A DNA stretch of 64,000 nucleotides. It comes from Bacteroidota bacterium. GTDB taxonomy: Bacteria > Bacteroidota > Bacteroidia > UBA8524. The stretch spans positions 1 through 64,000 of the forward strand of contig WBUH01000016.1 in the NCBI GenBank assembly GCA_008933805.1, given 5' to 3'. This document shows, one piece after another, positions 18,247 through 31,119 of the stretch. A program made the position numbers and the translations under genes. Below the pieces are notes generated by a model that did no database searches, was not told the DNA's origin, and worked only from the letters and a program-made list of their open reading frames with translations. The stretch's first letter is position 1. Every line of letters starts with the position of its first letter.

Positions 18247-20341
18247 GCGCGACATACTATGGCGGGTATACCTCGCCTTTTTGCTCACTGCGATATTCGG
18301 GGTGTGGGTGATAGTGTATGCCGTCCGCATTCAGTTCACCGAAGGTCCTGAACTGCGCAAACTTGCCGAAGAATTAAGCATTTCATACGAAACTATTGAG
18401 GCTACAAGAGGTAATATTTACTCTGACGACGGCAGCCTTTTGGCTACCTCAGTACCGGTGTATGACGTGCACATGGACATGGTAGCGGAGGGACTAACCA
18501 AAGAGGTGTTTAATGCTAATGTAGACTCGTTGGCTTGGTTGCTTTCAACAACCTTTAAAGACAAAAGTAAAGACGATTACCTGCGAATGCTGAAACAAGC
18601 CCGCAAGGACAAAAAAAGATATTTCCACCTGAAACGCAGGGTAAACTTTACCCAAATAAAAGCCATGAAAACATGGCCTATGTTCCGTTTGGGTAAATAC
18701 AAAGGCGGCTTTATCGTAACCGAAAAAGAACGTCGCCAAAAGCCTTTCCAAATATTGGCCGAACGTACAATTGGATATAGTATTGACGGTGTTGCACCCG
18801 TTGGACTTGAAGGCGCGTACGACGAAGTATTATCAGGCGTGAGCGGCAAACGGCTGATGCAAAAAGTATCGGGCGGGCAAACCATACCCGTTAATTATGA
18901 CAACGAGATTGAGCCTGAAGACGGTAAAGACATCTACACCACTATTGATATAAACATACAAGACGTGGCCGAAGATGCTCTGATGGAGGCATTGATAAAT
19001 AACGATGCCGAAAGCGGTTGCGCCATTTTGATGGAGGTGAAAACAGGCCACATAAAAGCCATTGCCAACCTAACCCGCAAATCGCCCGGAGTTTATAAAG
19101 AAGAATACAACTATGCTGTGGGCGAAAGTGCCGAGCCGGGCTCAACCTTTAAGCTGGCTTCACTGATTGCGCTGTTAGAAACCGGCGTTGCCGATTTGGA
19201 CGATAGTGTAACGGTAGATTTCGGTCATGCAAAATTCTTCGACCGTGAAATGAAAGACTCTGAGCCGGGTGCTAACAAAAGGCTCTCGCTACGTCAATCG
19301 TTCGAAAAATCTTCTAACGTAGGTATCTCAAAATTGGTGTACCAACACTTTGCCAAAAACCCCGAAAAGTTTGTAGAACAAATAAACAAGCTGGGCTTGG
19401 GCAAATCGTTGGGTTTGCAAATAACCGGCGAAGGAAAACCCCGCATAAAAAACCCCAACGACAAAGACTGGTACGGAACCACCCTGCCTTGGATGTCGAT
19501 AGGCTATGAATCAACCGTTACCCCCTTGCAAATGGCAACCTTGTACAATGCCGTAGCCAATGGCGGAACGATGGTGAAGCCCGTGTTTGTGCGTGAAGTC
19601 CGCCACGTAGGCAAACTGGTTGAGAAATACGAAACCGAAGTACTTAACGAAGCCATCTGCTCAAAAAGCACCCTTAAAAAGGTAAAAGAGGCGATGGAAG
19701 GAGTGGTGCTGCACGGTACGGCCACTAACCTTAAAAACGATAATTACACCGTTGCAGGCAAAACAGGTACGGCACAAATGGCCGACGCTAAAAACGGTTA
19801 CCGCAAATACTACAAATCGTCGTTTGCGGGCTACTTCCCTGCTGATAATCCCCAGTACACCTGTATTGTAACCGTAAACGGAGCCTCAAAAGGTGTGTAC
19901 TACGGCAGCTTGGTTGCAGGCCCTGTATTTAAAGAAATAGCCGACAAGGTATATGCCAGCAAACTGGATTTGCACCTTGACCTTGAGCAAAAAACAGTAA
20001 CCACGGTTGCTGCCCTGCCTACCCCTAAAGTATCGCAGAAAAAAGAACTGCAAGACGTGCTGAACGGTATCGGTATTTCATCACAAACCCAGCAAGAGGT
20101 GGACGACCAACAATGGGTAACTGCACAAACCAACGACAACGCCCTGAAAATTGGCGAACGCAAAATAGTGAACGGACAAGTACCTGATGTTACTGGTATG
20201 AGTTTGAAAGACGCTGTTTTTCTGATAGAAAACATAGGCATGAAAGTACGCTTTAGCGGCAACGGAAAAGTACGCAAGCAATCGTTGCCCGGCGGCTCAC
20301 GGATAGTAAAAGGCGGCACAGTTTATTTAGAATTAAGTTGA
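18236..20341 (+). CDS. ftsI: Septal peptidoglycan transpeptidase FtsI (PBP3-like)
   Basis: A 701-residue class B penicillin-binding protein. One N-terminal membrane helix (YLAFLLTAIFGVWVIVYAV), then the dimerisation domain, then the transpeptidase with the three catalytic motifs: STFK in ESAEPGSTFKLAS (about residue 302), SSN in FEKSSNVGISKLV, and KTG in VAGKTGTAQMA. It ends in one PASTA domain (VPDVTGMSLKDAVFLIENIG, residues 650-701). It cross-links peptidoglycan at the septum. It overlaps ftsL upstream and murE downstream (4 nt). Confidence 0.96.
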   Translation: MNVRRDILWRVYLAFLLTAIFGVWVIVYAVRIQFTEGPELRKLAEELSISYETIEATRGNIYSDDGSLLATSVPVYDVHMDMVAEGLTKEVFNANVDSLAWLLSTTFKDKSKDDYLRMLKQARKDKKRYFHLKRRVNFTQIKAMKTWPMFRLGKYKGGFIVTEKERRQKPFQILAERTIGYSIDGVAPVGLEGAYDEVLSGVSGKRLMQKVSGGQTIPVNYDNEIEPEDGKDIYTTIDINIQDVAEDALMEALINNDAESGCAILMEVKTGHIKAIANLTRKSPGVYKEEYNYAVGESAEPGSTFKLASLIALLETGVADLDDSVTVDFGHAKFFDREMKDSEPGANKRLSLRQSFEKSSNVGISKLVYQHFAKNPEKFVEQINKLGLGKSLGLQITGEGKPRIKNPNDKDWYGTTLPWMSIGYESTVTPLQMATLYNAVANGGTMVKPVFVREVRHVGKLVEKYETEVLNEAICSKSTLKKVKEAMEGVVLHGTATNLKNDNYTVAGKTGTAQMADAKNGYRKYYKSSFAGYFPADNPQYTCIVTVNGASKGVYYGSLVAGPVFKEIADKVYASKLDLHLDLEQKTVTTVAALPTPKVSQKKELQDVLNGIGISSQTQQEVDDQQWVTAQTNDNALKIGERKIVNGQVPDVTGMSLKDAVFLIENIGMKVRFSGNGKVRKQSLPGGSRIVKGGTVYLELS

Positions 20342-21786
20342 TTAGTATAAAAAACATATTACAGGGTGTAAAAACCAAACAGGTTAGCGGTGATGAAACG
20401 GCTGTTATTACCTCGCTTTGCTTGGATTCAAGAAAAGTAGAGGCAGGCAGTATGTTTTTTGCCGTGCGGGGCAGTTTGGCCGATGGCCACAGCTACATAC
20501 CTACTGCACTTGAAAAAGGGGCCGTGGCTATTGTGTGCGAAGAACTGCCCCAAAACCCTATGGCATCCGTAGTATGGATTTTGGTGGAAGAAACCCATGC
20601 GGCCATTGGCCCCATAGCTTGCAATTTTTACCAAAACCCTTCGCACGAGTTTAAACTGATTGGGGTAACAGGCACCAACGGTAAAACCACTGTGGCTACC
20701 TTGTTGTACCAATTATATACCCGCTTGGGATACAAATGCGGCTTGGTATCAACCGTGCAAAATGTTATCGGCACGCAGGTAATCCCATCCACACATACTA
20801 CCCCTGATGCGGTGAGTCTTACTGCTTTGTTGCGCCAAATGGCTGATAGTAGTTGCTCGTTTGTGTTTATGGAGTGCAGCAGCCATGCCATCCACCAAGA
20901 ACGTATTAAAGGACAAAAGTTTGCAGGAGCGGCATTTACCAATATCACGCACGACCACCTTGATTACCACGTAACGTTTGATAATTACCTAAAGGCAAAG
21001 AAGAAGTTTTTTGATGAACTGGATAGCGATGCCTTTGCCCTTACCAACAAAGACGACCGCAACGGCAGTGTAATGCTGCAAAACACCAAAGCCAGCAAAT
21101 ACACCTACAGTCTTCGCGGCATGGCCGATTTCCGTGCCCGCATTGTGGAGCAGGATTTTAGCGGAATGCTGCTTGACATTGACGGGCAAGAAGCCTGGTA
21201 TCGACTCACAGGTCATTTCAACGGGTATAATTTATTAGCTGTGTACGCCATAGCCTTTTTACTGGGCGAAAACAAAGAGGAAATTATTACCGCACTAAGC
21301 ACTATTCCCTCGGTTAGAGGTCGGTTTGAGTTTATGAAATCGCCCAACGGAGTGATAGGGATAGTGGATTATGCCCATACGCCCGATGCGCTTAAAAACG
21401 TGTTGGAAACCATTAACCAAATACGCACCAACAACGAGCAACTGATAACCGTTGTGGGCTGCGGCGGCAACCGTGATGCAGCAAAGCGGCCTGAAATGGC
21501 GGCGATTGCGGTAGAGATGAGCAACCGAGCCATTTTCACCTCAGACAACCCGCGCAATGAAGACCCTGAAGCCATTTTAGAAGAAATGATGCAGGGTGTA
21601 CCGGGACAGCATTACAAAAAGACATTGAAGATAACCGACAGGCGGGAAGCGATTAAAACCGCGGCAACGCTTGCCCAAAAGGGAGATATAATACTGATAG
21701 CAGGCAAAGGCCACGAAACCTATCAGGAAATAAAGGGCATTAAACACCCTTTTGACGACAGGGCTGTGTTGGAGGAAATGTGGTGA
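20338..21786 (+). CDS. murE: UDP-MurNAc-tripeptide synthetase MurE
   Basis: A 482-residue Mur ligase, with ATP loop GVTGTNGKTTVATLL near residue 111, the carbamate-lysine region and the C-terminal motif FTSDNPRNEDPEAI. DNPR is the motif that binds meso-diaminopimelate, so this cell's peptidoglycan very probably contains meso-DAP. The start is TTG at 20338, overlapping the ftsI stop by 4 nt; no ATG is available nearby. Its stop at 21786 lies 4 nt from the left inverted repeat of the inserted cassette. Confidence 0.96.
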   Translation: MISIKNILQGVKTKQVSGDETAVITSLCLDSRKVEAGSMFFAVRGSLADGHSYIPTALEKGAVAIVCEELPQNPMASVVWILVEETHAAIGPIACNFYQNPSHEFKLIGVTGTNGKTTVATLLYQLYTRLGYKCGLVSTVQNVIGTQVIPSTHTTPDAVSLTALLRQMADSSCSFVFMECSSHAIHQERIKGQKFAGAAFTNITHDHLDYHVTFDNYLKAKKKFFDELDSDAFALTNKDDRNGSVMLQNTKASKYTYSLRGMADFRARIVEQDFSGMLLDIDGQEAWYRLTGHFNGYNLLAVYAIAFLLGENKEEIITALSTIPSVRGRFEFMKSPNGVIGIVDYAHTPDALKNVLETINQIRTNNEQLITVVGCGGNRDAAKRPEMAAIAVEMSNRAIFTSDNPRNEDPEAILEEMMQGVPGQHYKKTLKITDRREAIKTAATLAQKGDIILIAGKGHETYQEIKGIKHPFDDRAVLEEMW

Positions 21787-21790
21787 ATAG

Positions 21791-21825
21791 ATGTGCGGAT
21801 TTGCAAGTGAGTAAATGTGCAGATG
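21791..21825 (+). repeat. Left terminal inverted repeat
   Basis: Contains ATGTGC, ATTTGCA, GTG and AAATGTGC in that order, the same blocks and spacing as the reverse complement of 22213-22247. Confidence 0.65.
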
Positions 21826-21826
21826 A

Positions 21827-22192
21827 ATGATGGAGCAGGGTAACCAAATAGTGAATTTGACTTTTGAGTTTGCTGTTTTGGCGATGAGGGTTTCGCAAGT
21901 GTTGGAAGAAAAGAAACGGTTTGCACACGCAAACCAACTCTTCAAATCAGGGACATCGATAGGAGCGAACGTGAGAGAGGCGCAAGGCGCACAAAGCAGG
22001 GCTGATTTTCTTCACAAAATGAAAATTGCCTACAAGGAAGCCGAAGAGACAGAGTACTGGCTATTGTTGGTGAAAGAGTATAAAGACGTGAGTATTGAGA
22101 CCGTTGTTTTTGAACGACTTACAAGTATTAAAAAAGTATTGGGAAGAATAATAACCACTACCACTGAAAAATTGAAACAGGAAAAAAAATAA
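21827..22192 (+). CDS. Four-helix-bundle protein (23S rRNA intervening-sequence/S23 family)
   Basis: A 121-residue helical protein with the family signature: QLFKSGTSIGANVREAQGAQ, RADFLHKMKIAYKEAEETEY and WLLLVKEYKD. This is the four-helix-bundle family also found inside intervening sequences of 23S rRNA genes and distantly related to the Avd protein of diversity-generating retroelements. Molecular function is not established. It sits inside a cassette with inverted repeats, between murE and mraY, and has no relation to cell-wall synthesis. ATG at 21827 or 21830 could start it. Confidence 0.92.
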   Translation: MMEQGNQIVNLTFEFAVLAMRVSQVLEEKKRFAHANQLFKSGTSIGANVREAQGAQSRADFLHKMKIAYKEAEETEYWLLLVKEYKDVSIETVVFERLTSIKKVLGRIITTTTEKLKQEKK

Positions 22193-22212
22193 TAAACCCC
22201 TTGCCAACGCAG

Positions 22213-22247
22213 CATTGGCACATTTGCACACCTGCAAATATGCACAT
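22213..22247 (-). repeat. Right terminal inverted repeat
   Basis: Reverse complement matches 21791-21825 at 28 of 35 positions. It ends 26 nt before the mraY start. Confidence 0.65.
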
Positions 22248-22273
22248 TGAAGCGACGGCAAAAGCAAGGCAAT

Positions 22274-23530
22274 ATGTTATACTACTTATTCGACTACTTA
22301 GAAAAAGAATTTAACCTCGCAGGGGCGGGTGTATTTCAATACATCTCGTTCAGGGCAAGTATGGCCATCATATTGTCGCTGGTTATTTCGCTGTTGTTTG
22401 GCAAAAGCCTCATCGCTATGCTGCACCGCAGGCAAGTAGCAGAAACCGTACGCCAGTTGGGGTTAGAAGGCGAAGCCCAAAAACAAGGTACTCCTACCAT
22501 GGGCGGGCTGATTATTCTTGCCGCCATCCTGCTTCCCACCCTACTGTTTGCCAAAATCACCAACATCTACATTCTGCTGATAATCGTAGTTACGGTTTGG
22601 CTGGGATTGATTGGCTTTTTGGATGATTACATCAAAGTATTTAAACGCGATAAAAAAGGACTTGCGGGCAAGTTTAAAGTAATGGGGCAAGTAGGTGTGG
22701 GTATCATCGTAGGTGCCATCCTGTACTTTCACCCCGAAGTAGTGGTAAAAGAGGTGTACACCCCTGCCGAAGCTGCCAAAACAGGCATAGAGGCAAGCCA
22801 ACTGAAAAAAGAGCAGATGAACGAAAAGGTGTATTACACCCGCGATGTAAAATCGACAGAAACCACTGTTCCCTTTCTAAAAGAAACTGAATTTGACTAT
22901 GCCGATTTACTGAAATGGATAGGCCCTAACTATCGCGATTGGGCGTGGCTTATTTATATACCTATTGTGATATTGATTATCACAGCCGTATCCAACGGAG
23001 CCAACCTAACAGACGGTATCGACGGGCTGGCATCGGGCGTTTCGGCCATTATAGGTACCACATTGGGCGTATTGGCCTACGTTTCGGGCAATAAAATCTT
23101 TGCAGATTACCTCAACATCATGTACATCCCCAACTTGGGCGAGCTGGTAATATTTGCCGGCGCCTTTGTAGGGGCTTGTGTAGGCTTTTTGTGGTACAAC
23201 TCAAACCCAGCACAGGTATTTATGGGCGACACGGGCAGCCTTTCACTGGGCGGTATTATCGCTGTGTTTGCCATCATCATCCGTAAAGAACTGCTGATAC
23301 CCATCCTCTGCGGGATTTTCCTAGTAGAAAACCTAAGTGTGGTAATACAGGTAGCCTATTTCAAATACACCAAAAAGAAATACGGCGAAGGGCGGCGCAT
23401 ATTCAAAATGTCGCCACTGCACCATCATTACCAAAAGCTGGGATATGCAGAACCCAAAATAGTAACCCGTTTCTGGATTGTCGGCATTATGCTGGCCATC
23501 TTCACCATCATCACATTGAAACTGAGATAA
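22274..23530 (+). CDS. mraY: Phospho-MurNAc-pentapeptide translocase MraY
   Basis: A 418-residue membrane protein starting [17 protein letters not shown]. It has about ten membrane helices and the catalytic motifs [21 protein letters not shown]-like [29 protein letters not shown] (catalytic aspartates) and [11 protein letters not shown] with SPLHHHYQK near the end. It makes lipid I. Relative to E. coli it has an extra hydrophilic loop near residues 165-215, usual for Bacteroidota. The frame is open to 22247 inside the inverted repeat, but the ATG at 22274 gives the normal N-terminus. Confidence 0.96.
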
Positions 23531-29704: not shown

Positions 29705-31006
29705 ATGCACAACGGTAAAATAATAGTTGGCTTAGACATTGGTACCACAAAGGTTTGCGCCATTGTGGGACGTTTTAACGAGTATGGAAAGATTGACGTG
29801 CTGGGCATGGGCAAAGCCGATTCGCACGGGGTTACACGAGGTGTTGTAACCAACATTAACAAAACAGTAGAAGCTATAAAAAAGGCTATTGACGAGGCTT
29901 CTGACAAATCAGGAGTTGAAGTGCGCAAGGTGCACGTAGGCATAGCCGGACAACATATAAAAAGCCGCCAACACCGTGGTTTGGTAGTGCGCAACTCGAT
30001 AGATACCGAGATTGACATGCACGACCTTAGCAAGCTGGAAGGCGATATGTATAAGCTGGCATTGAACCCCGGCGAAGAAATTATTCACGTATTGCCCCAA
30101 GAATACACTGTGGATAACGAGCCCGGTATCAAAGACCCTGTGGGTATGTCAGGCATCCGTTTAGAAGGAAATTTCCATGTAATTACCGCGCAAGTAACTG
30201 CTGCGCGCAACATATACAAATGCGTTCAGTTGGCAGGCTTAGAAGCGGCTGATTTGATACTGGAGCCTTTGGCGTCGTCAGAATCAGTGCTGAGCCCCCA
30301 AGAAATGGATGCAGGCGTTTGCTTGGTAGACATTGGTGGCGGCACAACAGATATTGCCATCTTCCACGACGGTGTAATCCGCCACACAGCGGTAATCCCC
30401 TACGGTGGTAACATCATTACTGAAGACATCAAAGAAGGTTGCAACGTATTGCGCGACCATGCCGAGCTGTTGAAAGTAAAATTCGGGTCGGCACTATGGG
30501 AAGAAACCAAAGCCAACGAGATTATCTCGATACCCGGTTTGCGTGGTCGCGACCCGAAAGAAATTTCGGTGCGTAACCTTGCCAAAATAATTCAAGCCCG
30601 CGTTGAAGAGATTTTTGAATTGGTGTATTGCGAGATTAAAAACAGCGGCGTAGAGAAGAAACTAATAGGCGGTGTGGTAATAACAGGGGGCGGTGCCCAA
30701 CTGAAACACGTTACCCACCTTGCTGAATATGTAACAGGGTTGGATGCCCGCATAGGCTACCCCAACGAGCATTTGGCCAAAGGAATGGTAGAAGAAGTAA
30801 AAAGCCCCATGTATGCCACAGGTATCGGTTTAGTGATTAAAGGATTAAAAACTGAAGACACAGGCATTGACATGAACGGCGCTGCCAAAAGCGAAGGCGA
30901 GTTGAAAGAACAACGCAAACAGATAAAAGACGAAATGCAGCGCAAAAACTTCCTTAACCGCTTAAAACAGTGGTTTGTGGATGATTTAGACGTGAAGGAT
31001 TTTTAA
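29705..31006 (+). CDS. ftsA: Cell division protein FtsA
   Basis: A 433-residue actin-like ATPase: phosphate-1 loop VGLDIGTTKVCAIVG at residue 9, the SHS2/1C domain with RKVHVGIAGQHIKSRQ, phosphate-2 loop VDIGGGTTDIAIF, GVVITGGGAQLKH, and a C-terminal amphipathic helix (RKNFLNRLKQWFVDDL) that anchors FtsZ rings to the membrane. It precedes ftsZ. Confidence 0.96.
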   Translation: MHNGKIIVGLDIGTTKVCAIVGRFNEYGKIDVLGMGKADSHGVTRGVVTNINKTVEAIKKAIDEASDKSGVEVRKVHVGIAGQHIKSRQHRGLVVRNSIDTEIDMHDLSKLEGDMYKLALNPGEEIIHVLPQEYTVDNEPGIKDPVGMSGIRLEGNFHVITAQVTAARNIYKCVQLAGLEAADLILEPLASSESVLSPQEMDAGVCLVDIGGGTTDIAIFHDGVIRHTAVIPYGGNIITEDIKEGCNVLRDHAELLKVKFGSALWEETKANEIISIPGLRGRDPKEISVRNLAKIIQARVEEIFELVYCEIKNSGVEKKLIGGVVITGGGAQLKHVTHLAEYVTGLDARIGYPNEHLAKGMVEEVKSPMYATGIGLVIKGLKTEDTGIDMNGAAKSEGELKEQRKQIKDEMQRKNFLNRLKQWFVDDLDVKDF

Positions 31007-31060
31007 TTTGAAGACGTGTTGATTTGAGAATTTGATAATTAGCTTATCAACTAATTAAGA

Positions 31061-31119
31061 AAATAAATGTGCTGGTGAGCCGGTGTGCGGCTTCCCTCCT
31101 TAATAAGGAGGGATTGAGG
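31061..31119. repeat. Short repeats in the ftsA-ftsZ gap
   Basis: 31061-31088 matches 24909-24936 (shared AAATAAATGTGCTG and GTGTGC with the same spacing). It is followed by the perfect hairpin CCCTCCTT-AAT-AAGGAGGG at 31094-31112. The gap is 164 bp and holds no gene. Confidence 0.5.

Follow-up and report, generated by a model that had tools for sequence, protein, structure and literature searches.

An S23 gene between inverted arrays of short words at the murE-mraY junction of a Bacteroidota bacterium: a likely old resident of a mobile element class

Between murE and mraY, in an essential operon of a Bacteroidota bacterium (assembly GCA_008933805.1), lies a small gene enclosed by inverted ends. 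We asked what this stretch of DNA is and how it came to be there. The window, the whole stretch of DNA that was analyzed, comprises positions 1 to 64,000 of contig WBUH01000016.1, and an earlier note made from its sequence had read the stretch as a miniature mobile element whose protein helps to recognize its own ends. The class of elements described below is defined by one S23 gene between inverted arrays of 7- to 8-nt words, and the window element has exactly this structure. Comparison of related loci indicates that gene and arrays travel together and that sites alternate between filled, gene-deleted, and empty states. Our preferred reading, fairly likely even with the mechanism proposed below included, is that the window DNA is an old resident of this class.

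The element in the murE-mraY junction

The element and its surroundings are laid out in Table 1. As the earlier note had described, the two arms match as inverted repeats at 28 of 35 positions; the left arm begins 4 nt downstream of the murE stop codon (TGA, 21784 to 21786), and the right arm finishes 26 nt upstream of the mraY start that is homologous among relatives. Both arms have an exact 8-nt period, with four full words and a fifth ATG anchor on each side; the words are degenerate and fit RATKWGMN. When 20,000 random places in the window were scored with the same geometry, the arm score was matched 14 times and never beaten; 14 is the number expected from draws landing on the element itself, although the draws were recorded as a count, without positions. 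The S23 open reading frame (ORF) begins immediately inside the 5′ array. When the element is folded as RNA, the arms form the closing stem of the minimum free energy structure (z = -3.75). A known RNA in the murE-mraY gap was considered and rejected, as Rfam gave only a chance match far below threshold, and the element lies outside any rRNA gene.

Table 1. Coordinates of the murE-mraY element, its neighbors, and a related array in the window
Feature	Coordinates	Strand	Content or basis
murE (upstream host gene)	20338..21786	+	homology in relatives
Whole murE-mraY gap, held by the element	21787..22273	.	gap comparison across relatives
5′ terminal array	21791..21825	+	ATGTGCGG / ATTTGCAA / GTGAGTAA / ATGTGCAG / ATG (five anchors)
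S23 / four-helix-bundle gene (PF05635, TIGR02436), 121 aa	21827..22192	+	profile matches
3′ terminal array	22213..22247	-	ATGTGCAT / ATTTGCAG / GTGTGCAA / ATGTGCCA / ATG
mraY (downstream host gene)	22274..23530	+	homologous start ATG 22274
Gene-less array of the same octamer family, ftsA-ftsZ gap	31006..31092	+	octamer pattern

The predicted protein matches PF05635 (E = 4.6e-20) and TIGR02436 (E = 5.1e-23), in agreement with the S23-type four-helix bundle that had been recognized from the letters alone. PF05635/TIGR02436-type profile searches of this ORF, the only one in the element, gave no nuclease, transposase, or strand-transfer domain, and a RAYT (Y1 HUH transposase) gene is absent from the element, whose sole gene is S23. 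The protein is therefore not a self-sufficient transposase; an enzyme may act on the element in trans. The AlphaFold model (pLDDT 95) matches 2RLD and 2GSC and, more weakly, the Avd protein of diversity-generating retroelements (DGR; 4DWL), with Foldseek E values of 0.5 to 0.8 for Avd versus 4e-5 or better for 2RLD. Against both 4DWL and chains of the DGR RNP structure 8UB7, the TM score is about 0.7. An S23 homologue from Xanthomonas is reported to be a homopentamer, and the function of S23 proteins has been described as unknown (PMC4990558). A PF05635 search found the family in 34 of 40 relatives, with up to 12 matches per genome.

Word arrays with and without an S23 gene

Three further S23 genes in the genome of the window are also flanked by inverted ends, whose words differ (TTTGAAGA-type, GACTTGTN, and GTGATTNG). 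A fixed 35-bp terminal repeat common to all copies, as the earlier note had envisaged, was thereby ruled out: each element has its own word, and the ends are lineage-specific arrays of short words. At 74 distinct loci in Bacteroidia genomes, the score of one flank against the reverse complement of the other had a median of 35, compared to 17 for flanks taken from different loci and 19 for the same flanks in direct orientation. Scores of at least 28 were reached at 74% of these 74 loci and at 80% of 84 S23 loci (one locus, in G018, is counted in both sets, which together hold about 158), versus 0 of 144 and 1.5% of 336 control places on the same contigs. The pairing of gene and inverted ends, for which a search in relatives had been proposed, is thus common among them.

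One degenerate octamer, RATKWGMN, makes up most of the ends at 85 S23 genes on 82 contigs that carry relatives of the window protein. Across elements the word period is 7 or 8, each inverted arm holds about 4 to 5 tandem words of that length, and most loci measured are roughly 400 to 580 bp in size. A permissive count gave five anchors in 42 of 80 right arms and 31 of 80 left arms, and in 10 of 17 right arms of a plasmid set. A strict rule of five words per arm was discarded, since a stricter unit count gives 4 as often as 5. Plasmids of five phyla (hosts: cyanobacteria, Treponema, Gemmatirosa, Azospirillum, and Bernardetia) contributed 22 S23 loci, nearly all with inverted word-array ends made of exact or near-exact heptamers or octamers; several of the cyanobacterial ends are exact heptamer arrays. 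In the first plasmid set, inverted ends were found at 11 of 11 loci, of which 9 exceeded the 95% cross-locus value, a threshold raised by the sharing of a word among several loci; in the second set, 9 of 11 exceeded the 95% cross-locus value. Direct matches were also strong at two plasmid loci, beating the inverted match in L344 and nearly equaling it in L338, because the arrays there are long or simple.

End words differ between elements, yet they appear to track the lineage of the S23 protein even at unrelated sites. Protein identity and end-word similarity were correlated across 122 elements (Mantel rho = 0.51; 0 of 300 permutations) in 7,209 pairs at different sites, host kinship being handled only by excluding shared sites. 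This is what would be expected if the protein helps to recognize the ends, as had been proposed, and the pairing of lineage with word leads to the direct prediction that each S23 protein binds its own word. The two arms of an element also belong together. Among the right arms of same-site orthologues, the element's own partner arm had a mean rank of 0.82 (P = 1.6e-7); the left arm thus fits its own right arm better than those of orthologues, and the arms therefore evolve in concert. In one element (L342), an identical unrelated stretch, GGACTAACGTCCCGCTCCGCTAACGC, lies inside both arms, which suggests copying from one arm to the other.

Arrays of the same kind also occur without a gene. A three-word pattern gave 0 to 143 hits per genome in 101 Mucilaginibacter-group genomes, and the reversed-pattern control gave 0 to 1 per strand. 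Genomes with a close S23 gene had a median of 59 array hits versus 25 in those without (P = 0.001), and genomes without an S23 match to the Mucilaginibacter-group query had a median of 12 (P = 0.0005). Of twenty arrays read in one genome (G130), many have a stop codon as their starting point, and many are palindromes about 100 bp long that contain no gene. In the genome of the window, a pattern search gave 56 octamer hits versus 12 in the control, and the GACTTGTN word of another element gave 13 versus 0. The look for further copies of the ends in this genome that the earlier note had proposed thus gave hits to the octamer pattern; no close copy of the element was present. One such array runs from the ftsA stop codon onward into the ftsA-ftsZ gap (TTTGAAGACGTGTTGATTTGAGAATTTGATAATTAG...) and is related to the element as a non-coding derivative or relic.

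Several individual arrays deserve mention. A gene-less palindrome directly after a stop codon (L208; G000:C1:470309-470336) combines words from two S23 lineages, ATTTGAAG and GACTTGTN. At the murD-ftsW junction, L282 (G112) and L283 (G048) are gene-less arrays of other heptamers (GTTCATA and GACCATG), and sister species of their hosts have an octamer array there instead. A different palindromic repeat, CCCTCCCC...GGGGAGATTTAGAGGGG, is found at murE-mraY or murD-ftsW in Mucilaginibacter (L241 in G041 and L243 in G047); several repeat families therefore use the same dcw junctions.

That gene-less arrays far outnumber genes, that some genomes carry arrays without a detectable S23 match, and that S23 has no catalytic domain match would all be expected if the arrays were host-wide REP-like repeats moved by unrelated machinery, with the S23 gene a trapped passenger. 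We consider this unlikely, though it is the strongest of the alternatives. A passenger would not be expected to have close inverted arrays on both sides at 74 to 80% of its loci, with two-sided arrays spanning five phyla, nor would the word be expected to follow the S23 lineage at unrelated sites or the window gene to begin at the inner array edge.

Movement of the class and age of the window copy

Mucilaginibacter and its relatives, handled here as one genus, hold close S23 genes at murE-mraY in most genomes examined. Closely similar genes lie at murD-ftsW in G041, G043, G044, G057, G072, and G074, and in G113 both junctions are occupied, the second copy being decayed. The murE-mraY site is empty in G043, with a TAATG overlap, so that the empty sites that the earlier note had proposed to seek in sister species do exist for other members of the class. 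In G044 the 3′ arm remains together with the final codons of S23; in G072 and G074 both arms are left without a gene, as palindromes; and murE ends at a stop codon contributed by the array in G040, G042, G048, and G113. The two G113 copies are 78% identical to each other, and the one at murD-ftsW is more similar (82 to 84%) to its counterparts in G041, G043, and G044. The duplication is therefore older than the split of these species, which places mobility on the time scale of a genus.

Plasmids show similar events. In Nostoc plasmids, a 418-bp element occurs at unrelated sites with 87.8% identity, and another element (L339) breaks a gene for a cytosine methyltransferase, of which L362, L363, and L365 have uninterrupted versions. 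The L337 element occupies a cas2-cas1 junction that measures 2 nt in L364. Replacement of host DNA was assessed in three plasmid comparisons, two of them clear: a 431-bp element replaces 197 bp in L346, and a 477-bp stretch replaces 339 bp in L339. The third, L337, suggests that host DNA was replaced there too. Neither L346 nor L339, the clearest filled/empty pairs of the class, showed a target-site duplication. At the L339 site, the host sequence has a single word copy, CAATTCG, at the left boundary; with so few cases, this observation is no more than a lead. Taken together, these comparisons support the view that the S23 gene and its ends act as one mobile unit in other class members, and the existence of a mobile class with word-array ends is, in our judgment, highly probable.

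The arms could instead serve RNA processing, as in the intervening sequences (IVSs) of rRNA: the arms would pair in the transcript, RNase III would excise the cassette from the operon mRNA, the protein would tune the cutting, and movement would be rare and incidental. The closing stem of the predicted fold and the co-evolution of the arms would suit such a cassette, as would the S23 genes of rRNA IVSs, which lie within complementary ends and are excised by RNase III (PMC4990558). However, the L337 element lies on the strand opposite its flanking genes, the L339 element interrupts a gene, and one-armed arrays occur. Arm-to-arm copying, to which the shared unrelated stretch in L342 points, also yields arm coherence. 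We regard this explanation as somewhat less probable than that of a trapped passenger.

If the class is mobile, how recently did the window copy arrive? Its nearest relative within the genome is only 51% identical, and recent copies of the element were ruled out there, with this as the best match. Among 29 assessable genomes, that of the window included, the murE-mraY gap is shorter than 30 nt in 26; S23 is present at the site in two, the window's own genome and G018; and in the remaining one (G030, L058) a 66-nt gap holds a solo TAAATAG heptamer array of about nine units and no S23. An insertion into a gap that is otherwise so short bears out the earlier note's view that the element is tolerated within an essential operon, and distant relatives do not all have the gene here. 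S23 copies at murE-mraY were also found in Mucilaginibacter, Cyclobacteriaceae, Flammeovirgaceae, and one Bacteroides MAG. One clade per site was not rejected (AU P = 0.29 with the Bacteroides copy and 0.85 without it) on an S23 tree of 100 alignment columns and low resolution, so tree proof of independent insertions at murE-mraY was not reached. The copies in several families may represent one lineage, with one old insertion and many losses; repeated use of the site is also compatible with this tree. Given the 51% identity of the nearest relative and the sharing of the site among families, the window copy is not recent. It is probably an old insertion, resident since then as a member of the mobile class; of the earlier reading as a miniature mobile element, the mobile unit of gene and ends stands for other members.

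It is very improbable that the element is nothing but a vertical relic, in which an immobile S23 gene became fixed at murE-mraY long ago and slippage and hairpin correction have maintained its ends: several families do share the site, with one clade per site not rejected, and local slippage with template switching could yield both array period and arm coherence, but 26 of 29 genomes lack S23 there, a second site with deletion remnants exists within one genus, similar copies lie at unrelated sites, an interrupted gene has intact counterparts, and arrays are dispersed, so that for the class as a whole this account is already contradicted.

The flanking gene pair of one locus, L002, is common to L114, L118, L129, L140, L150, L151, and L154 and also to L158, L159, L169, L178, L181, and L184. 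With flanking pairs common across families, it follows that S23 genes recur at a small number of operon junctions, through either inheritance or repeated insertion, which look alike on the tree.

A possible mechanism and relation to known systems

For the preferred reading, that of a mobile S23 word-array element, we put forward a molecular mechanism that is possible but decidedly tentative. An S23 pentamer would bind one array, with one subunit per word, in a single-stranded or hairpin form exposed during replication or transcription. It would hold the arms together and pass the hairpin to host enzymes, which would use short matches to copy it into a target, either by annealing or by template switching, and this copying would delete the host DNA between the matches. 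Gene-less arrays would be moved by the same S23 protein, and hairpins behind operon stop codons would be tolerated. It is also conceivable, with slightly better odds, that partnership with tandem-word arrays is the dedicated role of S23/IVP proteins as a whole, the pentamer reading about five lineage-specific 7- to 8-nt words and, with host replication or repair enzymes, spreading both S23 elements and gene-less arrays. If so, this would be a mobile element class without any encoded nuclease, and it would account for rRNA IVSs along with the orphan heptamer arrays found in cyanobacteria, Xanthomonas, and Beggiatoaceae.

The nearest known kind is the rRNA IVS. The Coxiella IVS, about 430 to 450 bp with complementary ends, carries an S23 ORF, as do IVSs of Leptospira and Brucella, and rRNA IVSs have been called selfish or parasitic and horizontally acquired (PMC4990558). 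The window element resembles them in its S23-family ORF, its size, and its complementary ends forming a closing stem. Unlike rRNA IVSs, the class sits in operon junctions and genes, has tandem 7- to 8-nt word ends matched to protein lineage, and has dispersed gene-less copies. DNA transposons and MITEs share the inverted ends around a unit, but the S23 ORF encodes no transposase or nuclease, and the class replaces host DNA with no target-site duplication seen in the pairs described above.

REP palindromes with RAYT offer another comparison: one gene is bordered by inverted copies of a short repeat, and further copies of that repeat, without the gene, are scattered through intergenic regions. 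RAYT is a Y1 HUH nuclease, and REPs are single hairpins. The S23 class likewise has dispersed gene-less copies of the repeat flanking its gene, whereas S23, a four-helix bundle, has no nuclease, and the ends of the class are tandem word arrays. With the DGR Avd protein the likeness is one of fold (TM about 0.7), and the window element, taken by itself, is a single ORF with no reverse transcriptase inside. The Avd family link has been stated previously (PMC10053308).

The ends also resemble known intergenic repeats in being 7-nt tandem arrays between genes in the same kinds of hosts. Cyanobacterial heptanucleotide repeats (STRR) are intergenic 7-nt tandem arrays. Such arrays include TAACTGA repeats (PMC4679880) and the GGGNATC repeats of Xanthomonas and Nostoc (PMC4692102), for which the passages searched name no S23 partner. 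Unlike these arrays, those of the class form inverted pairs around S23; that the published heptamer arrays are the same repeats as S23 ends is a lead drawn from this analogy. In the open-access literature searched, we found no report tying S23/PF05635 genes to tandem-word ends, and none describing ends built as word arrays, words specific to a lineage, or relatives without the gene; the S23 family and complementary ends are already known from IVSs. PF05635/TIGR02436 proteins are common in Bacteroidota, and the class gives this long-mysterious family a likely, testable role. One account of the heptamer arrays that have lacked an explanation in several phyla also follows, as does a suggested route of transposition in which host DNA is replaced and the element encodes no transposase.

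Other gene contexts of S23 elements were observed on cyanobacterial plasmids. At five loci (L337, L338, L350, L351, and L355) the element lies between cas genes, the junctions concerned being cas2-cas1, cas6-cas4, and cas10-cmr3; PF05635 genes were already among those tallied in cas loci by a previous survey (PMC3936711). On a Nostoc plasmid (L349), an S23 element lies between genes for ribonucleotide reductase subunits and is antisense to both.
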